A stretch of DNA of 22,574 nt from a virus, in the IMG/VR virus record IMGVR_UViG_3300012954_000094, positions 1 through 22,574 of that record; one strand, written 5' to 3'. The notes beneath the pieces are model-generated. The model was not told the origin of the DNA. It was given only the letters and a program-made list of their open reading frames with translations, and searched no databases. Position numbers and translations under genes: made by a program. Below, one piece after another: positions 1 through 21,860 of this stretch; position 1 is the stretch's first letter, and each line of letters starts with the position of its first letter.

Positions 1-1112
1 CCGTTGAGGGTACCAGCGAAGGTGTTGCCGGTGTCATCCACGTTCATGTTGGAGGACAGGGCAGGGGTGTAGTCGAGTTGACCAGCAGCAGTCAGAGCAG
101 AAGCAACATCCGCAGAGCAGAGGATGATGTTGCCCTTCCCGCGACGAGTCCGTTGGGCGATGGCGTTAGCGTCACGCTCCAGTTGGAAGATCATACCCTT
201 GAACTTCTCAACCATCCAACGACCGTTGCTGTCGGTGTCAAGGTCGAACACGCCAGTGGTGGCAGTGTTGGTTTGTGCACCTGCTTCAGCAGACTTGTAG
301 ATGGTACGGATGATCTCGCGGTTGATCTCAGCAAGGATCTCAGTGCTGAGGATGTTGGCGAGTTCCGCTTCAGCATCCAGACCGTGGATCGCCTTCAGGT
401 CCTGAGCAAGCTCAAGGCTGTACTCTGCCTTCAGGGCACGAGACTTGGCAGTCACCGAGACTTTCTCGATGCTGAACGCCATCTCGCGGAAGTCGTTCGA
501 GGAGGCATCGCCCAGAGCTTCAGAAGCTTGGGTGCTGAAACCTTGTCCAACGTTATAAGCGTTAGCTGCACCACCGTTGAGGATCGAAGGGTTGGTGCCT
601 GCTTGAGCGGTTGTACCGAAACCGACAGAGGTGCCGCCGTCAGTTGCTCCGGTGTAGTCGCCTTGAGAAAGGGACGCAGCGGAGTTCTGAGCGGAGAACG
701 CAGAATCGGGCTCGTTGAAGAATGCCTCGGTGCCAGACTGGTTGTCATAGCGGGAGCGCATTGCGAAGATCAAACCGGTAGGACCGGACATCGGCTGCAC
801 ACCAGCGAGGTCATAAGCGACCAGGTTGGGCATGGAGCGACGGATCAGGCTGATCAGCACAGGGTCGAAACCTGCAACAGGACCAGCAGCGGCAGCGCCA
901 CCACTAAAACCGGCGGTGCCAGCAGAGGTGGGGTCAGTGTTGACGGTCGGAGGTGCTTCACTCAGGAATGCACGCTCTTCGCGAAGAAAACGTTCTTGGT
1001 TTTCGAGAAGTTGAGCGGTTACTGCTTTGCGGTGGTTGTCCTTGATTGCGTCAAGTCCTTCGGCCTCAAGCAGAGGTGCCCACTTCTTCTGGAGAGAGCC
1101 AGAATTGAACAT
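1..1112 (-). CDS. gp23: Major capsid protein gp23, N-terminal part (cut by window edge)
   Basis: Translation from the ATG at 1112 gives 370 codons open to the left edge. It begins MFNSGSLQKKWAPLLEAEGL and contains capsid-like blocks such as SRALKAEYSLELAQDLKAIH and ILAEINREIIRTIY, which I recognise as T4-type gp23. It forms the hexameric lattice of the head. Residues 48-53 read AFLSEA, a good match to the gp21 maturation site, with expected cleavage after Glu52 removing the N-terminal propeptide. It follows gp22 by 38 bases, the T4 order. The long open frame on the other strand (78-1133) is a codon-bias shadow. The C-terminal portion lies outside the window. Confidence 0.96.
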   Translation of the reverse strand, partial: MFNSGSLQKKWAPLLEAEGLDAIKDNHRKAVTAQLLENQERFLREERAFLSEAPPTVNTDPTSAGTAGFSGGAAAAGPVAGFDPVLISLIRRSMPNLVAYDLAGVQPMSGPTGLIFAMRSRYDNQSGTEAFFNEPDSAFSAQNSAASLSQGDYTGATDGGTSVGFGTTAQAGTNPSILNGGAANAYNVGQGFSTQASEALGDASSNDFREMAFSIEKVSVTAKSRALKAEYSLELAQDLKAIHGLDAEAELANILSTEILAEINREIIRTIYKSAEAGAQTNTATTGVFDLDTDSNGRWMVEKFKGMIFQLERDANAIAQRTRRGKGNIILCSADVASALTAAGQLDYTPALSSNMNVDDTGNTFAGTLN

Positions 1113-1150: not shown

Positions 1151-2248
1151 CTATTGGAACTTAGTTAGAGCGTTGAGATAAGCACTCATTGCCGGAGAAT
1201 GATCTTCGACGATGCTCTCCTCGCTGCTAACTTCTTGGGACTCAACCACAGGCTTCGTGAAATACGATTCCTTCAGAGTTGAGAGTTTCTCCCGGTATTG
1301 TTCTTCACTTTCAAACTCAACACCTTTTGAGAGTTCCGAAAGCTTGTCCTTTTGGGACAGCGCCAGACCTTCACTTACTTCATCGAGGATGTTGTCAGAA
1401 ACAGATGCCGACAGTCGCTGAGTCAATGCGACATTGCTGTCGATCTGTTCGTTGAGTTTTGTCTCCATTTCATCAAGCTTGGAAGTCATTGCTTCCAAGA
1501 CATCATATTTATCTTCAGGGATTTCAACATAATGTTCTTCAAAGAGGGTCTTCAGACCCGACATGAAGGATTCCGAGAGTTCACCTCGGATTCCAGATTC
1601 GACCTGCAGCGCATTCTCGTTGATCCATTCGTTAGCAACGAACTCTAGGTATGAATCAACACGCTCGGTCATCTCAGTCTTGAAGGTTGCGACCTCTTGG
1701 TCGAACGCTTCGCTGAACTGAGCTTCCAGAGTGCTTGCCACCTGATCAATCTTGCTGCGGACAGCAGCTTCAAAGATCGTAGCGGTCTTTTCTTGGAACT
1801 CGGCAGAGAGTTCTTCTCCTTCGAGCAGAGCAGCAACGTCATCAGACACGTCGATAGCAATTGCTTCGACTTGCTCCTCTTCAGCAACAACTTCCTCTTC
1901 GGTAGCAGGAGCTTCGGCAACCACTTCCTCCTCGGATTCGGTTTCCTCGTTAGCACCCTTGCCATAACCGGTGCTCTTCAGAGCAGCAGGTCCGGGCAGT
2001 TGCACTTTGCCAGCAGCACCTTGACGACCAAAGTGAGGGTCGCCCGACTGGGCAAACGACGCGCCAGGTGTCTTCAGCTTGTTGCTGTCGTCATCTGGCT
2101 TGGAGTTAGTAGGAGTAGGTCCACCCAGATCTTCGATCGAGGCGTTGTCCGGCACGTAGTTGGGAGCCTTAGGCATAGGTTCCGCTTTAGACGCACCTTT
2201 AGTAACCTGGTTCTCCATTTCATCTAGTGGTTGTTTCGCTTCAGCCAT
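1151..2248 (-). CDS. gp22: Prohead core scaffold protein gp22
   Basis: A 365-residue acidic protein lying between the protease and capsid genes, as in T4. Residues about 100-130 are dominated by Glu and Ala, and 135-340 are predicted helical with heptad-like spacing, as expected of an assembly core that is later degraded by gp21. The N-terminal 100 residues are Pro/Gly-rich and look disordered. It is longer than T4 gp22 (269 residues). A late-promoter-like pair lies just upstream (2284-2300), so gp22-gp23 may be transcribed from its own start as well as by read-through. Identification rests on position, composition and the general cyanophage gp22 look. Confidence 0.9.
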   Translation of the reverse strand: MAEAKQPLDEMENQVTKGASKAEPMPKAPNYVPDNASIEDLGGPTPTNSKPDDDSNKLKTPGASFAQSGDPHFGRQGAAGKVQLPGPAALKSTGYGKGANEETESEEEVVAEAPATEEEVVAEEEQVEAIAIDVSDDVAALLEGEELSAEFQEKTATIFEAAVRSKIDQVASTLEAQFSEAFDQEVATFKTEMTERVDSYLEFVANEWINENALQVESGIRGELSESFMSGLKTLFEEHYVEIPEDKYDVLEAMTSKLDEMETKLNEQIDSNVALTQRLSASVSDNILDEVSEGLALSQKDKLSELSKGVEFESEEQYREKLSTLKESYFTKPVVESQEVSSEESIVEDHSPAMSAYLNALTKFQ

Positions 2249-2283: not shown

Positions 2284-2300
2284 TTATTTAGAGATTTATA
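2284..2300 (-). promoter_or_regulatory. Tandem late-promoter-like octamers before gp22
   Basis: On the minus strand the sequence reads TATAAATC (2300-2293) then CTAAATAA (2291-2284). Both resemble the T4 late -10 octamer TATAAATA. The first overlaps the TAA stop of gp21 (2298-2296). They stand 35-50 bases upstream of the gp22 ATG. Function is inferred. Confidence 0.5.
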
Positions 2301-2943
2301 GATCTGATAGGAATTGTGCAAAAAGGCGCAACTTGTGTGCCTCAAGGACTCCTTGATCTACAGCGGTATTTATACTCTCTTCGATTGCCTTACAGGACTT
2401 CTCGCGGAGCATACCACCTTCCCAGACCCACTCCTTTCCTTCCATAATTCCGTCCACAAAAGCGTCAGGTGCAGAAGGATCGGCAACGATGTCAGCAGCA
2501 GTGGCGAGCATGAAGTCTTCGCCAACGTAGTTGATACCGTCACGCTGGGTGATTGACCCCATTCCTCGTGAGGAAACACCAAGTTTTACACCCTCACTGA
2601 TGAGGGACTCAGCGATCTTGCCCATGGGGGTAGACAAGATTTGTGCCTTACCAATGAAGTTATTACCTTCTTGAGTTAGAGACACAATCTTATGGGACAC
2701 GCGGTCTAGGTTGATCTGGGGACCATCGGGGTGACCCAGTTCACCAAGTGCACGACCTTTGCTGGTAAAGGCGTCGTTGTAACGAGCAACTTCCTTGACC
2801 ATGGTTCCGATGCCATAGCACCGCTTGTTCCGGTTGACAACCTCTGCTTGAAGGAAGGGTCCTTGAATGTACAGAGTCTTCTTACCGTCTTTTTCTTCGG
2901 TAAGAATGTCTACGGATTCAACTTCTTCTGAAATAAGCTTCAT
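2296..2943 (-). CDS. gp21: Prohead maturation protease gp21
   Basis: A 215-residue serine protease of the T4 gp21 (S78-like) family that cleaves gp23, destroys the scaffold and triggers head maturation. Visible motifs are GELGHPDGP with candidate catalytic His71, GVSSRGMGS with candidate Ser124/125, and AADIVADPS with an Asp at 151 or 155. T4 gp21 is 212 residues, so the length fits. I chose the ATG at 2943 because it overlaps the stop of the upstream gene in an ATGA arrangement; a longer frame exists to 2976 but would add 11 residues unlike the family. It lies immediately before gp22. Confidence 0.93.
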   Translation of the reverse strand: MKLISEEVESVDILTEEKDGKKTLYIQGPFLQAEVVNRNKRCYGIGTMVKEVARYNDAFTSKGRALGELGHPDGPQINLDRVSHKIVSLTQEGNNFIGKAQILSTPMGKIAESLISEGVKLGVSSRGMGSITQRDGINYVGEDFMLATAADIVADPSAPDAFVDGIMEGKEWVWEGGMLREKSCKAIEESINTAVDQGVLEAHKLRLFAQFLSDL

Positions 2944-8346: not shown

Positions 8347-10005
8347 TCAGGACATGTACTCCCACATGTAAGACCTGTCCCCGTATTCATCTGTCTTCCA
8401 AACAGTGCCATCAGACTCGATAGTTTCTCCTCCCATCTCGTCGAATCCATCACAGATAAACCCAAAGGGTGCCATGTCTTGTTCGATGGCATTCTTCTGC
8501 TCTTCGTATATTTTTCTACGGACATCCTGGTCCGTCATTTCTTTGAAGTAGTCCTGTGCAACTAACCAGGCAAAGATAACCAGACACATAGCAAGGTCAT
8601 CATTACAACCTTCCTCTGCCTCAAACGACTGCTTCTTTTGGATGAACGTTGTCAGTTCTGCAATGATGTTGTAGTCACAGAAGATTAGTTTGTCATCCTC
8701 AACCAGAGTCTTGAGGTTAGAACAACCCACCTTCTTGGTGACCTGACTCATCTTCACACCCAACTGAGTCTTGACGCCAGAGAACCCAGAACCAACTTGC
8801 TGACCTGCACGCCCACGCATTGCAACCATCAACAGGTTTTCGTACTCCAGGTCATAGAACAGGATGGATGCCACCTGGTCACCTATGTCATTGACCTCTG
8901 CCAAGACATGAGCATTGTTGTATGCCCTACCCACTTCCTCAATGATTGATGGAAAGATCATGGGTTTGATTTCGTTGTCTCGGTAAACTCCGACAACTTT
9001 GTATGGGTATTCTGTGATATCAAAAACACAGAACGTGCTATAGTCTTTGCCTACGCCACGTGCAACGTCAACTGTGATGACGTACTCATGATTTTCACGT
9101 GGAGTCTCATACAAAGATAACTTCCCATTTCTCTTCACTGGGTCTTCATAGACCAGTGCTTTGAGTTTTGATGCTGCAATCAGGGTGTCAACAGATCCAA
9201 GGAATTCGCACTCAAACTCGATCTTGAATTGTTGCTCTGATGTGTTGGCAATAGTTTGTTTCTTCCACTTGGCGTCTCTGCCTGGTACCTCTGACCAGTG
9301 CACCTCAGTGGCAACATACTCATTCTTTCCACGCTCAGCGTCATGCCACATCCTGTAGAAATGGTTCATGCCGTGAGGCGTAGACACGATGATCACCTTG
9401 GTGGACTTACCAGATGAAATCGTGGGATACACAGATGCAAAGAAGTCATCTGCCAGGTGGTTTGCAACGAACGCAAATTCGTCCAGGAAGATGATGTTGA
9501 AGGACATACCCCGAACAGCAGATGCTGAGGTGGATGCCGCGATGATCTTGGAACCGTTCTCCAGTTCCATAGATCCTTTGTTCCACGCTACGATACCTTG
9601 CTGCATCCAACGCGGCAGGTTCTCGTACGCCAACTGTAGTCTGCCGAGGAGATCTCTAGCAGTAGCCGCTTTGTTCGCAAGGATTCCGATATTGACGTTG
9701 TCGTTGAAGATTGCATAGTGGAGCAGGAACGATACAACAGTTGTTGATTTGCCCGTCTGCCTAGGCATTTTGCAGATATTGAATCTGTTTTTATGAAAAT
9801 TTTTGATAAGTTTCTTCTGAAACTTATACATGCTGAATGGAACGAGACCTTCGTCAACGTTTACAATTTTGATGTGCTTCTCTGTAAAGTAAACAGGGTC
9901 GTTCTTACATCGAACGAACTCGATGATGTTTTCTTCAGTAAATTCTTGCTGAGTGTTTGCCTTTTTTAGATTAGGATTACCAAGATATACGTCACTGCCA
10001 GGCAT
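8347..10005 (-). CDS. gp17: Terminase large subunit gp17
   Basis: A 552-residue packaging motor ATPase and headful nuclease. The ATPase domain has Walker A at residues 80-88 (MPRQTGKST), Walker B at 171-177 (IIFLDEF) and a VSTP coupling motif at 207-210. The RNase H-like nuclease domain has candidate catalytic residues Asp313 (VDVARG), Glu370 (LAEVND) and Asp470 (CNDDLAM), matching the D/E/D set of T4 gp17. T4 gp17 is 610 residues. The start at 10005 follows the preceding stop by 3 bases with GGGAG just upstream. It works with gp16 and docks on the gp20 portal. Confidence 0.97.
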   Translation of the reverse strand: MPGSDVYLGNPNLKKANTQQEFTEENIIEFVRCKNDPVYFTEKHIKIVNVDEGLVPFSMYKFQKKLIKNFHKNRFNICKMPRQTGKSTTVVSFLLHYAIFNDNVNIGILANKAATARDLLGRLQLAYENLPRWMQQGIVAWNKGSMELENGSKIIAASTSASAVRGMSFNIIFLDEFAFVANHLADDFFASVYPTISSGKSTKVIIVSTPHGMNHFYRMWHDAERGKNEYVATEVHWSEVPGRDAKWKKQTIANTSEQQFKIEFECEFLGSVDTLIAASKLKALVYEDPVKRNGKLSLYETPRENHEYVITVDVARGVGKDYSTFCVFDITEYPYKVVGVYRDNEIKPMIFPSIIEEVGRAYNNAHVLAEVNDIGDQVASILFYDLEYENLLMVAMRGRAGQQVGSGFSGVKTQLGVKMSQVTKKVGCSNLKTLVEDDKLIFCDYNIIAELTTFIQKKQSFEAEEGCNDDLAMCLVIFAWLVAQDYFKEMTDQDVRRKIYEEQKNAIEQDMAPFGFICDGFDEMGGETIESDGTVWKTDEYGDRSYMWEYMS

Positions 10006-10008
10006 AAA

Positions 10009-10788
10009 TTACACTCCCTTCGCTTCCGACATAAACTGTTTGAAGGTCTTCAATTCTGCAGATTCGGTCTTCCAACTAGACTTGCCAAAAGCAGCAGCAG
10101 TGTTTCCAATTGCGAATTTACCAATCTTTCCTGCAACCCCTGCGACCTTTCCAGCAACTCGTGCTGCCGCACCAACCTTGCCAGCAACTCGTTTCGCCTT
10201 GACATAATTTTTCTTTGCGGTGTAGTTAGTAGGACCACCAGTCTTTTTCTCAGGTGCTCTCCGGGCAAGTGCACCACCCTGGGCAACTCGGTCAGTGCCT
10301 GCACCAGAAGGAGGACGACGGTTGCCACCTGCTCCACCACCAGACAGTTTCTTTTGACCACCCGAAGAGGAGGAAGAAGAAGATGCACTAGGAAGTTTCT
10401 TCTGACCAGGAGTTACGTCCTGGACCTTCACCTTCTTCACGCCCATGTCTACTGCCTTACCTCCAGCAGAAGATACACGCTTGCTATCACCAGAGCCACC
10501 AACCTTATTAGACTGATTGCTCTGTGAATTGTTTTTGACAAGACCGCCGCGTTTGGCAATTGCACTGGTACCTACCTCTTTCTTTCCTGTTGGGGTGCTG
10601 GTAGTCGTGCTCTTAGTGGGTTGAGGAGAACCAGACTTCTTGGCAGCACGCTCTTGTGCCTGCTTACGGACTCTTGCTGCCTTTTGAGCAGCACCAGGAT
10701 TTTTCTTCTGGTAGTCGGCAAACTGGTCGTCCGACATCTTCGCGAACGCATCACCAGGTGCTTCGTATAGCGGTTTTTTGAACGACAT
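10009..10788 (-). CDS. Basic low-complexity protein with C-terminal capsid-targeting-like peptide
   Basis: A 259-residue protein of unknown function between gp16 and gp17. By hand count it has 51 Lys+Arg against 15 Asp+Glu. Residues 1-60 are Lys/Ala-rich. Residues 60-190 are Gly/Ser/Pro-rich and probably disordered, with a Ser-rich run near 134-142. Residues 200-235 repeat VAGKV-type units (VAGKVGAAARVAGKVAGVAG), giving a basic amphipathic stretch. The end, residues 246-256, reads LKTFKQFMSEA and resembles the T4 internal-protein targeting peptide MKTYQEFIAEA; FMSE|A also parallels the FLSE|A site in this phage's gp23. I infer a DNA-associated internal head protein. CTAAATAA lies 20 bases before the ATG. 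Confidence 0.82.
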   Translation of the reverse strand: MSFKKPLYEAPGDAFAKMSDDQFADYQKKNPGAAQKAARVRKQAQERAAKKSGSPQPTKSTTTSTPTGKKEVGTSAIAKRGGLVKNNSQSNQSNKVGGSGDSKRVSSAGGKAVDMGVKKVKVQDVTPGQKKLPSASSSSSSSGGQKKLSGGGAGGNRRPPSGAGTDRVAQGGALARRAPEKKTGGPTNYTAKKNYVKAKRVAGKVGAAARVAGKVAGVAGKIGKFAIGNTAAAFGKSSWKTESAELKTFKQFMSEAKGV

Positions 10789-10795
10789 AGTGATG

Positions 10796-11203
10796 CTACT
10801 TGTCCGTGTTATTTAGGAGACCCTTCTTGATCATCTTCTGCAGTTCACTTGTGCTGCCCACAAACAGAGCGTTGTTAGTAACGTTCTTAGGACCTTCTTC
10901 TGCGTTCAGATCTTTCATCTTTTTCTGGAGGTCAACGATCTTATCGGTGACATCACCAACGTGCTTGATCAATTGACCAGCAACTTCATATGCTCTAGGA
11001 TGTTGGGTATCCATGCAGACATCAAGGATACCGTTCACTGCTTCTTGTCCCTTCTCAACTAAGTTATAAAGTTGGGCACGAGAATACTCGTAATCTTTCT
11101 CTGGATCTTCTGGTCTAATTTGTCTGGAGATTGCTTTTGATTCTTTTACAATCTCCGATTTAGTTTCTAGTGCCTTATCAATAGCGTCGAAGTCTTGACT
11201 CAT
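10796..11203 (-). CDS. gp16: Terminase small subunit gp16
   Basis: A 135-residue small terminase that recognises or holds DNA and stimulates gp17. The central block from SRAQLYNLVEKGQEAVNGIL through HPRAYEVAGQLIKHVGDVTD to LQKKMKDL is the conserved helical region of T4-type gp16. T4 gp16 is 164 residues, so this is a compact form. The ATG overlaps the gp15 stop as ATGA, implying translational coupling. Near its 3' end the codons for Leu-Asn-Asn double as a CTAAATAA late-promoter-like motif for the next gene. Confidence 0.93.
   Translation of the reverse strand: MSQDFDAIDKALETKSEIVKESKAISRQIRPEDPEKDYEYSRAQLYNLVEKGQEAVNGILDVCMDTQHPRAYEVAGQLIKHVGDVTDKIVDLQKKMKDLNAEEGPKNVTNNALFVGSTSELQKMIKKGLLNNTDK
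10809..10816 (-). promoter_or_regulatory. CTAAATAA motif inside the end of gp16
   Basis: The minus strand reads CTAAATAA within the last codons of gp16, 20 bases before the ATG of the basic protein. This is the same octamer type found at other late gene starts here. Confidence 0.4.
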
Positions 11204-15769: not shown

Positions 15770-16450
15770 ATGAAGACACTCGTTGTACTAACTGGACCTC
15801 AAGGATCGGGTAACCATCTGTGGTCAAAAATCTTCTCACTACACGAGGATGTCTTTGGGTGGAAGTCTCTGCTGAACAACTATTGGGAGGCACATAGATT
15901 CGCAGAACCTTTTGCGGAATACTGGAGAGACCCCAGTAAACTGCAAACTTTCGACTGGTCTCAATCGGAATATTACTTTACTTCTATTAGCGTCCCCCTC
16001 GGCATCAAAGAAAAAGGGACCCACTGGTGTCCAAACGTGTTGCAGTTTTGCAAGTCTGCCGAAAATATGGGGATCAAAACAAACATAGTAGTAATTGGTC
16101 GGGATCAAACGATCCTTCACAATCAACAAAAGCGGTTGAGGGGTGAACCTACATCCAGGTATTTCCTGGATCAAATGTCTAAATTCCCCAACCCAACCTT
16201 TCTCAGTTACGAACTCCTATATCTCTACAAACAGGAGTATCTAAAGCATCTGGATGTTGGAATCCCAGTTGCCTGGTATGACGAGCGTGTGAACGAGATT
16301 CTCAGGCGAGATGCTAATGAAAAATACATTAGATATGTTGAGCAAAACCCTTTGGACGACTGCAATAAAACAGGGTGTCCTGCACCACTAGATCCGTTCA
16401 CTGAAGGACCTACAGGTCCACAACCAGAAAAACCCATAAAGTGTTGTTGA
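15770..16450 (+). CDS. P-loop protein A, sulfotransferase-like
   Basis: A 226-residue protein of unknown function. It has a glycine-rich nucleotide-binding loop at residues 8-16 (TGPQGSGNH) directly after the first beta strand, followed by FSLH..V.GW.SL..NYW. An RDQ at 111-113 followed by QQKRLRGE occupies the place of the RDP...S 3'-phosphate-binding motif of sulfotransferases, so a divergent sulfotransferase or kinase fold is plausible. It is a clear paralogue of the protein at 20029-20664. Unlike that copy it ends in a Pro/Gly-rich tail closing KCC. It is the first gene of the plus-strand island, behind an early-type promoter and a strong Shine-Dalgarno. Confidence 0.85.
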   Translation: MKTLVVLTGPQGSGNHLWSKIFSLHEDVFGWKSLLNNYWEAHRFAEPFAEYWRDPSKLQTFDWSQSEYYFTSISVPLGIKEKGTHWCPNVLQFCKSAENMGIKTNIVVIGRDQTILHNQQKRLRGEPTSRYFLDQMSKFPNPTFLSYELLYLYKQEYLKHLDVGIPVAWYDERVNEILRRDANEKYIRYVEQNPLDDCNKTGCPAPLDPFTEGPTGPQPEKPIKCC

Positions 16451-16868: not shown

Positions 16869-17840
16869 ATGAAAAAAGTACGTTGGGTGTTAGCACACGA
16901 ACCCATTGAACTTTTTCTTCGTGCTGCCCGTAAATTTGCTGCTCTTATGGAGCAACTTGTACCGGGTGAGCTCGATGTCGAAATTCTGACCCTTTCCGAG
17001 TATTCGGAGAAGTATAATGCTGGTGAACCGGTCACCAAGCACGATCTTCTTCGTCTGATGAAGGAAGGTAAGTGTGAAATGTCCCAAATGTATACGTCCA
17101 CTCTCGGACGTGCACATAACACGGACATGCGAGTTCTCGACATGCCTTTTTTATTTCGCGACCATGAACACGCTAAGTGGGTGCTTGAGGGTGAGATTGG
17201 CAACGAACTGCTGAAAGGTCTTGACGAAGAGTCCAAAGGATTCCGCACCGTCAAGGGTCTTGCATTCACCTACTCAGGTGGATTCCGCATGATTCCTGCC
17301 AATAAAGAGATTCACAAAATTGAAGATTTCCAAGGGCTTCCTCTCCGTTGTAACAACTCTGACATTGCCAAAGAAACTCTAAAGGCAGTCGGTGCTGTGC
17401 CTGTTCCCATCGAACTGGAGCAAATCAACGAAGGCGTGCAAAGCGGCGATATTGTGGGTGGAGAATCCACCTACCCTCGTTTCTTCGGTCTGAAGCAGAA
17501 CGAGCACATGAATACGATCAACGATGCGGAGCATTCCCTGTTCCTCACCACGATCATTATTCAGAAAGAGTTCTGGCGGGATCTCTCCAAGGAACTCAGA
17601 ACCTCAATCTGTAACGCTTCCCGTGAAGCAGCACGTGCTGAACGTGTCTGGTCCGTTGAGGACATTGACATCGTGAAGAGCAAGTGTGAAGAGGAAAACA
17701 TCAATGTCGTGACTATGTCCGACGCTGAGCGTGCTCGCTTCAAGGATGCAACTGCTTACTTGTATGACAAGTTTGCTGATACCCTACCTCCTGGTATGGT
17801 CGATCGTATTCGTAAGCATGGAACTCCTGAAGAGGACTGA
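16869..17840 (+). CDS. TRAP-transporter DctP-like solute-binding protein without signal peptide
   Basis: A 323-residue protein with the DctP (TRAP-T substrate-binding) fold signature: RWVLAHEP as first strand, MPFLFRDHEHAKWVLEGEIG at 92-111, GFRMIPANKEIHKIEDFQGL at 138-157, then PLR with the conserved carboxylate-binding Arg160, AVGAVPVPIELEQINEGVQS at 173-192 and VGGESTYPRF. In bacteria these proteins bind organic acids in the periplasm for a DctQM permease. Here the first strand begins at residue 4 and an in-frame TAA two codons upstream of the ATG excludes a longer form, so no export signal is present. No permease gene is in the window. It sits after the DUF2061 gene and before a strong terminator. 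Confidence 0.9.
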   Translation: MKKVRWVLAHEPIELFLRAARKFAALMEQLVPGELDVEILTLSEYSEKYNAGEPVTKHDLLRLMKEGKCEMSQMYTSTLGRAHNTDMRVLDMPFLFRDHEHAKWVLEGEIGNELLKGLDEESKGFRTVKGLAFTYSGGFRMIPANKEIHKIEDFQGLPLRCNNSDIAKETLKAVGAVPVPIELEQINEGVQSGDIVGGESTYPRFFGLKQNEHMNTINDAEHSLFLTTIIIQKEFWRDLSKELRTSICNASREAARAERVWSVEDIDIVKSKCEEENINVVTMSDAERARFKDATAYLYDKFADTLPPGMVDRIRKHGTPEED

Positions 17841-19029: not shown

Positions 19030-20030
19030 TTTGAGAATCGATCCCAGAAGTAAGAATCAATATATTCAGTGCTGTATAGTCCTGGGTGATTAGTAAAGTC
19101 CACATATAATTTACCATCAACTTTACGGTAAGTCCCCTCCTTGATATTCTCTTCACGTATACCTGTTATGGGCAGTGAGCAGGTCTCTTCATAATTTACT
19201 GGGACTCCCCATTCTTCAACATTCCACCCCTCATAGTGGTCACTCATAATATCTTTGTACTCATAGTATTGTTTTTCGGTCATATTGAACTGATCTGATG
19301 ACCATTGATCTTTTTGATATTGATATCTGACTGCTTTGTTTCCTCTATCAGGATAATATAAGTTTGGAGCAAATTCAGTCTGTCCAAATAACTCATTCAG
19401 CAGTTGTGTTTTCCCTGCCCACACCTCCTCCATGATTAGGACGTGTACAGGACACACTTTTCTTGCATTTTCAATAACTTTATGATATGGTTGTAAGTTT
19501 GAAAATTTTATTTTAGCAACAGAGTAAATATCACTAAACTGTTTTACATCATCAAGTATCTTCGAGTAATTATTCCATCCATAATTCAACCAAGACCATG
19601 CTCTCCGTACAGGATCTCTACATATTATGAGAGCACTAACGTCAAATTCTTTGCTGAGTGCTCTGAGTAACCGCTGTGTAAAATCAGCGTCTAGTCTATA
19701 GTTACTGTTAGACCAATCAACTAATACGTCTCTACCATATCCCCTACTATCCCACAAATTTTTGTAGTAATCAACATATTTCTGTATAGACCAGTTACTA
19801 AAATCTGGGAAAGATGTTACAATTTCTCCAGAGTCAGAACCAAATTTCTGATACCAAAAAATCTTTGCTTTACATTTCTCTAGTTTCTTCTCATCACCAA
19901 GGTGTTGAGTAAAGTCTGCCAAATGATGTTCTTTTGCAACTCCACTCGTCACTCTATGACGAATCATTTTATATAATGGACTCGACGCTGAAAACGCTGT
20001 TCCTAAAAAAAATATAAATTTGGGTTTCAT
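19026..20030 (-). CDS. Sulfotransferase-family protein
   Basis: A 334-residue protein with the layout of PAPS-dependent sulfotransferases. The first strand and loop, FIFFLGTAFSASSPLYKM at 5-22, stand where the 5'-phosphosulfate loop lies, though it is not a classical GxxRSGT. The 3'-phosphate-binding motif is clear at 138-147, RDPVRRAWSW. A C-terminal part rich in Tyr, Trp and Asn is consistent with acceptor binding. The likely acceptor is a glycan or small molecule, not determinable here. The ATG at 20030 shares two bases with the ATG of the divergent gene B. The gene is AT-rich: 19501-19560 has 15 G/C in 60. Confidence 0.82.
   Translation of the reverse strand: MKPKFIFFLGTAFSASSPLYKMIRHRVTSGVAKEHHLADFTQHLGDEKKLEKCKAKIFWYQKFGSDSGEIVTSFPDFSNWSIQKYVDYYKNLWDSRGYGRDVLVDWSNSNYRLDADFTQRLLRALSKEFDVSALIICRDPVRRAWSWLNYGWNNYSKILDDVKQFSDIYSVAKIKFSNLQPYHKVIENARKVCPVHVLIMEEVWAGKTQLLNELFGQTEFAPNLYYPDRGNKAVRYQYQKDQWSSDQFNMTEKQYYEYKDIMSDHYEGWNVEEWGVPVNYEETCSLPITGIREENIKEGTYRKVDGKLYVDFTNHPGLYSTEYIDSYFWDRFSN
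20013..20020 (+). promoter_or_regulatory. TATAAATT element just before P-loop gene B
   Basis: TATAAATT differs from the late consensus TATAAATA at the last base and lies 8 bases before the ATG at 20029. Transcription from it would give a leaderless or nearly leaderless message, so it may be a chance match in AT-rich coding sequence of the opposite gene. Confidence 0.25.
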
Positions 20031-20664
20031 GAAAAGACTTCTTATCACCACTGGACCACAGGGGTCAGGAAATCATTTATTAGCTCGTGTATTTAGTCTG
20101 CACTCTGCCGTTGTGGGGTGGGAATCGCTGAAAACTAATTACTGGGTTCCTAGTGATCAAGAACCCTTTGCCAAATACTGGGTATATCCTGACCAACTAG
20201 AGTTTCCTGATGGTGAGTTCTTTCTCGCTAACGTCAGTGTCCCTTTCTTCTACGATGGTGTACGGCAGACACCAAAGATCGTAGAGGTGTGCCATCAGGC
20301 AATGCACATGGGGTATGAACCTGTCGTTGCAATTATCTGTAGAGATCAGAATATCAACGCTGTGCAACAACAAAGGGTCGGAGGGGAAGTGACCCTACCG
20401 ACCGCTAAGGAGTATTACAGATTGCTGTTAGATGATCCTTATATTGAAACTCACTTCCTATCCCATGAATCATTCTTTATGTGGAAAGAAGATTATATCA
20501 AATACATTGGGCACCAACTAAAGTTCCCTGTAACGACCGAAGGCATCGACCAGTTCATAACCGGCGATGCCAACGGAAAGTATGTAAGTCCCGTCGAAGA
20601 CCATTGGTTAGACGAGACTATTAGAGAAGGTCGTCAGACCTTCAAACAACGGCGAGGGGAGTAG
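20029..20664 (+). CDS. P-loop protein B, paralogue of gene A
   Basis: A 211-residue protein. It shares with gene A the start MK.L...TGPQGSGNHL, FSLH..V.GW.SL..NYW, EPFA.YW..P..L, an SVP, RDQ at 105-107, QQ.R.GGE.T-type sequence, LSHE/LSYE and DAN.KY, in the same order. The phosphate-binding loop is at residues 8-16. Function is unknown; a sulfotransferase- or kinase-like P-loop fold is likely. The ATG at 20029 gives the same N-terminus as gene A; a TTG at 20020 would add three residues. No Shine-Dalgarno is visible. Its last 23 bases overlap the end of the convergent ferritin-like gene. Confidence 0.85.
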   Translation: MKRLLITTGPQGSGNHLLARVFSLHSAVVGWESLKTNYWVPSDQEPFAKYWVYPDQLEFPDGEFFLANVSVPFFYDGVRQTPKIVEVCHQAMHMGYEPVVAIICRDQNINAVQQQRVGGEVTLPTAKEYYRLLLDDPYIETHFLSHESFFMWKEDYIKYIGHQLKFPVTTEGIDQFITGDANGKYVSPVEDHWLDETIREGRQTFKQRRGE

Positions 20665-21316
20665 AGGTGTTCTGACGGGAGATCTCCAGCAGGTCTTCAC
20701 GCATACGCTCAACCAGTGAGAGAACGCGGTCCTGCAGATCAGCACTACCTTCCACCAGGCGACTCAGGGTGCGACCACCCAGGTTGCTGTGGAATCCTTC
20801 ATCCTTAGCGATGGAGGCATAACGTGAAGAGATGAACTTGTCGTCAACGCACTCAGCCATTTCGTTCCAGACTGCTTCTGCACGACCTTCAGCAACGAGC
20901 TGATAGGCAGCGAGGGCAGCGGGATCTTCAGAAGCTTCATACTTCTCAAGCAGGGAAGCACCCTTTGCCTGAGGAGCGTCAGCTTCAGCAGCGAAAGCAG
21001 CAGCAACATCCAGTTCTTCACCGGTGATGTGCTCGATGACTTCCTTGACCATGCGGAAGTGCTTTGCTTCGTCGAGTGCTTGCTTGCTCAGCAGTTCCAG
21101 GTCACGCACGTCGGTGCTGGGGTCTGCAGAAGCAACTTGACCTGCGATGGCGTACATGTTCTGTGCTTCGTTGACCATACGGCCACGGAAGTGATCTACC
21201 AGGTACTCGTCGCTAGGGGATGAAGCGAAGAAACGACGGACGTTGCTACGGGAAGCCTCAAAAAGCTCCCTATTACCTTCCTTGATTTTCTTTACGAAAT
21301 CGGTTCCAGAAAGCAT
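20642..21316 (-). CDS. Ferritin-like di-iron protein
   Basis: A 224-residue, almost wholly helical protein with the spacing of a four-helix di-iron carboxylate centre: Glu50 (RMVNEAQ), Glu83-x-x-His86 (DEAKH), Glu143 or Glu147 (AEGRAEAVW) and Glu173-x-x-His176 (DEGFH). This E/ExxH/E/ExxH pattern is shared by ferritin-like oxidases and oxygenases, including the PaaA-like class. Substrate is unknown; iron storage, peroxide removal or an oxygenation step are all possible. I chose the ATG at 21316 because AAGGA stands about 9 bases upstream; in-frame starts to 21430 would run into the methyltransferase gene. GC content and codon use look like the structural genes rather than its AT-rich neighbours. 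Confidence 0.85.
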   Translation of the reverse strand: MLSGTDFVKKIKEGNRELFEASRSNVRRFFASSPSDEYLVDHFRGRMVNEAQNMYAIAGQVASADPSTDVRDLELLSKQALDEAKHFRMVKEVIEHITGEELDVAAAFAAEADAPQAKGASLLEKYEASEDPAALAAYQLVAEGRAEAVWNEMAECVDDKFISSRYASIAKDEGFHSNLGGRTLSRLVEGSADLQDRVLSLVERMREDLLEISRQNTSTPLAVV

Positions 21317-21335
21317 TGTTGATTTCCTTTCTACT

Positions 21336-21860
21336 TTAGTATTTAGCATAATGAAAAAAATACCTTTTATGTCCTTGAGAGGTATATTCCTCCTCAAGTG
21401 ACTTGATTTTATATCGGTATTCAATTGCAATTTTATTTATCTTCTCAATATTCCAATCATACCATTCAATATCCTTCCATTCATTACTCCAACTATGTTC
21501 TATGCCTGGATTGACTCTGAATATGCAGTCCTTCAAAAACAACTTATCCAGCATAGAAATCTGCTCATCGATATTTTTCTCAGATCCAAAATTTATGGAT
21601 CCAAGACACAATACAGTATCAGCAGGAGGAAACTCATACTGATAATATTCCTCTAAAGACATATGAAGATGTGCCTCAGAATTGTATGGATCAATTCCAA
21701 CTAATCCAGGTATAGCGTCTCTAAGGCGGTTGTAACCGCATCCCACGTCTAGAACACTAGAAGGGGATAACTTGTTTACATAGTCTATTAGAGCGTCTCC
21801 TGAGTGCTTTAGAAGACTAACATAGTCATCCTTCCATATACCACTAAAGTAAGACTCCAT
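21336..21860 (-). CDS. Class I SAM-dependent methyltransferase
   Basis: A 174-residue protein with methyltransferase motif I VLDVGCGYNR at 36-45, an acidic residue at the end of strand 2 (GIDPYN at 55-60), and DTVLCLGSIN at 81-90 as the motif IV strand. The family transfers methyl from S-adenosylmethionine; the compact size and lack of an RNA- or DNA-binding extension point to a small-molecule acceptor, but this is inference. It overlaps the preceding small gene by one base (TAATG) and ends 19 bases before the ferritin-like ATG. It is very AT-rich: 21421-21480 has 16 G/C in 60, unlike both neighbours. Confidence 0.85.
   Translation of the reverse strand: MESYFSGIWKDDYVSLLKHSGDALIDYVNKLSPSSVLDVGCGYNRLRDAIPGLVGIDPYNSEAHLHMSLEEYYQYEFPPADTVLCLGSINFGSEKNIDEQISMLDKLFLKDCIFRVNPGIEHSWSNEWKDIEWYDWNIEKINKIAIEYRYKIKSLEEEYTSQGHKRYFFHYAKY
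21339..21346 (-). promoter_or_regulatory. CTAAATAC motif before the ferritin-like gene
   Basis: The minus strand reads CTAAATAC inside the final codons of the methyltransferase gene (Ala-Lys-Tyr), 22 bases before the ferritin-like ATG. Same octamer type and spacing as at structural genes, suggesting late expression. Confidence 0.45.

Follow-up and report, generated by a model that had tools for sequence, protein, structure and literature searches.

Foreign proteins are packed into phage T4 heads by means of the T4 capsid-targeting sequence, attached to their N-terminus. In the T4 record, the internal proteins IPII and IPIII both start with MKTYQEFIAEA and IPI with MKTFKEF; within this tag, targeting depends on residues 4 and 7, and processing on residues 8 and 10 (PMC9026906). 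Outside the case described here, all known examples of the tag stand at the N-terminus of their cargo, and the literature searched yielded no experimental test of such a sequence in C-terminal position. In cyanophages, an NMNAT-like enzyme was detected in virions by mass spectrometry in S-SM1 (PMC3037559), S-SCSM1 (PMC9602691), S-CREM2 (PMC10665884) and S-SZBM1 (PMC9146016). The isolate members of this NMNAT/cytidylyltransferase family (T4-GC190) carry the same motif at their N-termini (MKRFLQFLSEA, MKKFSAFLKEA, MKKFSAFLSEA, MKSFTSFFTEA, MKSFLQFLKEA and MKKFSAFLNEA), and their environmental relatives begin with VKxFxxFITEA or near variants (examples are L104:15737-16630, equivalent to G001 91737-92633, and the isolates L276-L281). 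Save for one T4 review that mentions both, the literature searched does not link the capsid-targeting sequence with cyanophage proteins. A T4-type tag on the NMNAT-like enzymes would give a simple and testable reason for their recurrent detection in virions, and the tag sequence would allow one to predict which proteins a cyanophage delivers together with its DNA.

The window, by which we mean the whole stretch of 22,574 nucleotides analysed here (IMG/VR virus record IMGVR_UViG_3300012954_000094, positions 1 to 22,574), encodes on its minus strand a basic protein of 259 amino acids (10009-10788), here called pp. It is flanked by gp16, the terminase small subunit (10796-11203, minus strand; PF11053, phrog_445), and gp17, the terminase large subunit (8347-10005, minus strand; PF03237, PF17289), with gaps of 7 nt and 3 nt, so that the gene order is gp16-pp-gp17 with all three genes on the minus strand. 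For pp we propose the role of an internal head protein, carried as cargo in the prohead core of a marine T4-like phage, with a C-terminal targeting tag and trimming by gp21, and give this reading a probability of roughly 0.6; the presence of pp in the virion or head is a prediction from sequence. The head genes that such a protein would depend on are encoded in the same window, namely gp21, the prohead protease and expected processing enzyme (2296-2943, minus strand; PF03420), and gp22, the scaffold/core protein (1151-2248, minus strand; PF25623, phrog_237) and, to judge from T4, the presumed docking partner. The sequence-only reading had placed pp between gp16 and gp17, counted 51 basic against 15 acidic residues and seen that E255 is followed by A256; coordinates, strand, order and counts are all correct (51 K+R, 15 D+E, pI 10.6). 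The parallel that it had drawn between FMSE|A in pp and the maturation site of the window's gp23 also holds, as the gp23 sequence reads FLSE|APPT (FLSE|A, E52|A53, 954-968, minus strand; sequence and clade comparison). We obtained no match of pp in Pfam, PHROG or INPHARED, no homology to the T4 internal proteins by Pfam, PHROG or tblastn, and no homologue in isolates by tblastn against 50,697 phages, a search in which low-complexity filtering may hide weak ones. Elsewhere in the window, a DctP-type TRAP transporter solute-binding protein (16869-17840; PF03480, E 6e-46) lies amid the phage structural region, a paralogous ORF pair with 36% identity and TGPQGSGNH N-termini (15770-16450 and 20020-20664) lies among phage genes in plus orientation, and the protein encoded at 20642-21430 has a weak PaaA_PaaC match below the cut-off (E 6e-4).

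The C-terminus of pp is LKTFKQFMSEAKGV, in which residues 246-256 (10021-10053, minus strand) read LKTFKQFMSE|A, and the closeness to the T4 tag that had been noticed from the letters was confirmed against the T4 record. A first matrix was trained solely on the N-termini of the cyanophage NMNAT/cytidylyltransferases (MKKFSAFLxEA) and set against a background of 149,342 positions from three related proteomes. The pp peptide KTFKQFMSEA scores 14.6 bits on it and T4's own tag 11.7, and among the 149,342 positions pp is exceeded only by two N-termini of the training family (GC190); the C-terminal peptide is closer than the background to a set of N-terminal tags that served as independent training data. 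On a second matrix, smoothed and with the T4 tag added, the C-termini of the four close clusters of the pp family score 20.0, 16.1, 11.6 and 11.0, and the best-scoring C-terminus among 539 proteome proteins is that of the pp homologue itself. In addition, the pattern [KR][TSK][FY]..F[LIM].E was scanned over the 192-kb contig of one relative (L007) and the 112-kb contig of another (L010), together 373 ORFs and 98,364 aa, where it occurs twice against 0.045 occurrences expected from shuffled proteins. One occurrence is the C-terminus of the pp homologue and the other the N-terminus of an NMNAT-like protein, a T4-GC190 homologue with a GTG start and the first residues MKKFSTFITEA. The loose FxxF core was rejected as evidence, since C-termini are not enriched in it (8 versus 6.5 expected), and thus the tag claim rests on the full motif. 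On these sequence statistics, the C-terminal peptide of pp is no chance match. It keeps all four key residue types of the T4 tag (F/Y249, F252, M253 and E255), as do the four close clusters, and its pN/pS is 0.25 versus 0.41 for the whole gene, on a small base of ten codons with near-saturated synonymous change. Cleavage after E255 (MSE|A, in homologues MIE|S and MIE|C) is possible, which makes this a candidate gp21 site.

IMG/VR yielded 15 relatives of pp, one of which (L001) is 97% identical, and rescanning with the alignment gave no further ones. The family is known solely from metagenomic contigs, with no virion proteome, and the relatives long enough to show their context have the same gp16-pp-gp17 order. 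Four clusters have a free C-terminus, reading LKTFKQFMSEAKGV, LKTFSQFMIESRGR, LKTFGQFMIESENGK and LKTYQEFMIECRHARK, the last of which has KTYQEF in common with T4. In the fifth cluster (L008-L010), the peptide GITFRQYLETA runs on into a DUF6321 domain (E 3e-24), which is absent from the window's pp and present only in these fused homologues. More distant proteins of the gp16-gp17 interval (hereafter, the slot), L017-L025, share with pp a C-terminal module, [AGSN][FY]Gx[ST]S[FW], which is AFGKSSW in pp (residues 233-239, 10072-10092, minus strand) and was found by a regex scan of all fetched loci to be common to divergent slot proteins. The tails of L017-L025 do not score as tags, and in L018 and L025 the tail is missing; these proteins were rejected as tag carriers by their matrix score. 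The conservation proposed as a check on the capsid-targeting idea is therefore found in the four close clusters and stops short of the distant slot proteins. The idea itself stands to the same extent: the match is very good, is kept in the close clusters and resembles the N-terminal tags of virion-associated cyanophage proteins, but it does not extend to L017-L025.

The slot is also occupied by other proteins bearing the motif. About 50 distinct tag sequences score at least 9.5 bits among 575 distinct slot ORFs, whereas the three background proteomes have 9 such positions, a contrast that is biased upward as some of the loci were picked with a tagged query. Most of the slot tags are N-terminal, and a well-scoring C-terminal position is found in the window's family only. 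The phrog_1742 proteins (L365-L444; L364:6216-6533) begin with MK[SN]FKQF[ILM]SES and keep K2, F/Y4, F7, I/L/M8 and E10, the key residues of T4. Among them, SSCSM1_30, encoded in the slot of phage S-SCSM1, starts with MKTFKQFMSES and agrees with the window's C-terminus in 9/9 residues of KTFKQFMSE; at the DNA level, 26/33 nt of the tag are the same (manual count), and the TTG (Leu) of the window stands opposite the start ATG of SSCSM1_30. This protein is hypothetical by annotation and outside the listed virion proteins of S-SCSM1, and the tagged slot proteins S-SZBM1_191, 192 and 194 are missing from the published virion list. A DUF6321 protein from the S-SCSM1 slot does carry a virion-protein annotation. 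T4-GC119 (the DUF6321 slot proteins) was apparently detected in S-SM1 virions, as judged from the note in GenBank, "similar to Synechococcus phage S-SM1 protein", wording that is also attached to proteins named as detected in the S-SM1 paper.

The motif stands just before DUF6321 in 7 of 53 contexts (L232, L237, L412, L413, L446, L218 and L117; e.g., KTYDQFMIE|VAAW), five of them in the form F(M/I)xE|(V/G)AAW, as if gp21 could cut the DUF6321 domain free at the preceding motif. In one locus (L017:1490-1640), the tail of a slot ORF, ITFREWLDQLPVDEL, recurs almost unchanged at the beginning of the ORF that follows, MKFKEWLQTLPVEKIDEA, a tandem tag copy. Among the relatives, the motif is thus placed N-terminally, internally (before DUF6321) or C-terminally (the pp family only). 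Because of this range of positions, and because a fusion is still visible in L008-L010, the simplest history is that an ancestor of the pp family was fused to a downstream gene bearing the tag and that the body of this gene was then lost. More tentatively, and with a likelihood that we place somewhat short of even, T4-like marine phages would possess one head-targeting motif that works independently of position (N-terminal in enzymes and small proteins, internal before DUF6321, C-terminal in pp), and the gp16-gp17 interval would be a site at which tagged head cargo is exchanged.

The same history could have left the C-terminal peptide of pp as a functionless remnant: pp would once have been fused to a downstream gene with an N-terminal tag (DUF6321 or phrog_1742 type), of which only the tag codons would be left. 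The join between pp and DUF6321 in L008-L010 lies exactly at the tag, ORFs with an N-terminal tag abound in the slot, and the Leu of the tag (TTG in the window) falls at the start-ATG position of these ORFs, all of which would agree with a remnant. It is nevertheless an unlikely explanation, as LKT[FY]x[QE]FMxE is kept in four diverged clusters at a pN/pS of 0.25, including both aromatic residues that T4 uses for targeting.

Most of the body of pp is predicted to be disordered. The AlphaFold2 model has a mean pLDDT of 47, and its sole confidently modelled part is a helical N-terminal block at residues 13-51 (10636-10752, minus strand; pLDDT 70-85). It is followed by a basic Ser/Gly/Lys-rich region at residues 52-190 (10219-10635, minus strand; pLDDT about 40) and, by sequence, an Ala/Val/Gly/Lys-rich stretch at residues 191-232 (10093-10218, minus strand). 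The latter contains the VAGKV repeats from which membrane activity had been supposed, a suggestion that we do not retain, given that its hydrophobic moment is attained by 9% of shuffled sequences, which misses the 5% level. The charge of pp is what points to DNA binding, and the abundance of lysine in the body suggests an internal protein associated with the DNA. A basic and disordered protein whose gene, wherever the context is visible, lies in a compact cluster with gp16 on one side and gp17 on the other could instead be a DNA-packaging accessory working with both terminase subunits, its C-terminal helix binding the terminase or the portal. We hold this to be slightly less probable still than a fusion remnant: the slot elsewhere holds fibre-like, DUF6321 or unrelated proteins, or nothing, and the tag recurs on NMNAT-like enzymes that are encoded elsewhere.

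At the other end, pp begins with MSFKKPLYE|APGD, a feature overlooked in the sequence-only reading. Residues 1-9 (MSFKKPLYE, 10762-10788, minus strand) form a putative propeptide with the gp21-type site LYE|AP at its end, and (L/I)xE|AP is the form of the maturation site of the clade's gp23, which by clade comparison reads FLxE|[AST]P and would, by analogy with T4, be cut at FLxE|(A/S/T)P. The homologues have PIYE|AP or PIFE|AP at this position, and PIFE|DS in L006, P6 and E9 being the same in all; the confident AlphaFold2 block starts at residue 13, directly after the putative site. The form of the site, the invariant P6 and E9 and the start of the model block all argue for the N-terminus as the better gp21 site, while the C-terminus would be the better targeting peptide. 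A short N-terminal capsid-targeting propeptide like that of the T4 internal proteins is not found in pp, whose tag-like peptide is residues 246-256, and the N-terminus scores poorly as a tag on the second matrix (0.6 and -1.8). That the N-terminus (M(L/K)YTYKLPIFE|APGD) is the real targeting peptide and the C-terminal likeness secondary is improbable: in its favour, its TYxxxIxEA spacing is the same as in T4 TYQEFIAEA and its gp21-type site is conserved, but targeting position 7 holds a proline in place of Phe, and those two scores compare with 11 to 20 for the C-terminus.

The protease of the window has a terminal peptide of its own. The C-terminus of gp21, KLRLFAQFLSDL, follows KLxLFx[DEN]F[LI]xNL, which is strongly conserved in the window and 84 related loci and is lacking in T4 gp21; it is possibly a tail that docks the protease on the core. 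We rejected it as the same docking peptide as in pp: it looks similar to the tag, most of all beside ITFKDYLNKL of L020/L022, yet it scores only 4.7 on the tag matrix.

If pp is an internal head cargo protein, it would be made late, from the gp16-pp-gp17 gene group, and its C-terminal LKTFKQFMSEA helix would dock it on the gp22 core ahead of shell closure. Processing by gp21 would then trim pp after LYE-9, and perhaps also after MSE-255. As a cut at E255 would take off only four residues and leave the tag on pp, release would come about through destruction of the core instead of the tag. The head would retain, along with the DNA, the lysine-rich and largely disordered body of pp, whose role would probably be that of a charge-neutralising filler or an ejected protein. 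Overall, the first observation of a T4-like peptide at the end of pp is confirmed, and its interpretation is partly supported and improved by the N-terminal site; pp probably belongs to the packaged proteins by way of an unusual tail-end tag. A natural C-terminal tag, if true, would mean that the position of the tag is not fixed, and cargo that needs a free N-terminus would become possible.

Among the described systems, the T4 internal proteins IPI, IPII and IPIII are like pp in being basic, in the tag residues KT[FY]x[QE]F, in a site of the xE|A type and in a head gene set with gp21 and gp22. Their tag is N-terminal, however, whereas that of pp is C-terminal and would stay on after cutting; the bodies have no sequence relation, pp is about 1.3 to 2.7 times longer, and it is known here from sequence alone. 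Two-ended processing and C-terminal targeting would both have precedent, in T4 Alt and in the SPN3US protease, respectively. T4 Alt is processed by gp21 at both ends, after ITE-6 and LTE-619 (PMC5694885), and thus has sites at both ends as pp does, those of pp being candidates; unlike pp, it is an enzyme, and its C-terminal propeptide has 63 residues. For the SPN3US prohead protease gp245, the C-terminal propeptide was proposed to target the protease to the prohead (PMC7411985), which resembles pp in being C-terminal targeting within a T4-related assembly pathway, but this propeptide has 64 residues, sits on the protease itself and is cut at AXE. The cyanophage phrog_1742 proteins, such as SSCSM1_30, share with pp the gp16-gp17 slot and nearly the same peptide, which in their case is N-terminal and attached to an unrelated body. 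Finally, the virion-detected T4-GC190 enzymes share the tag pattern, MK[KSR]FxxF[LIF]xEA, and differ from pp in carrying it at the N-terminus, in being enzymes and in being encoded elsewhere in the genome.
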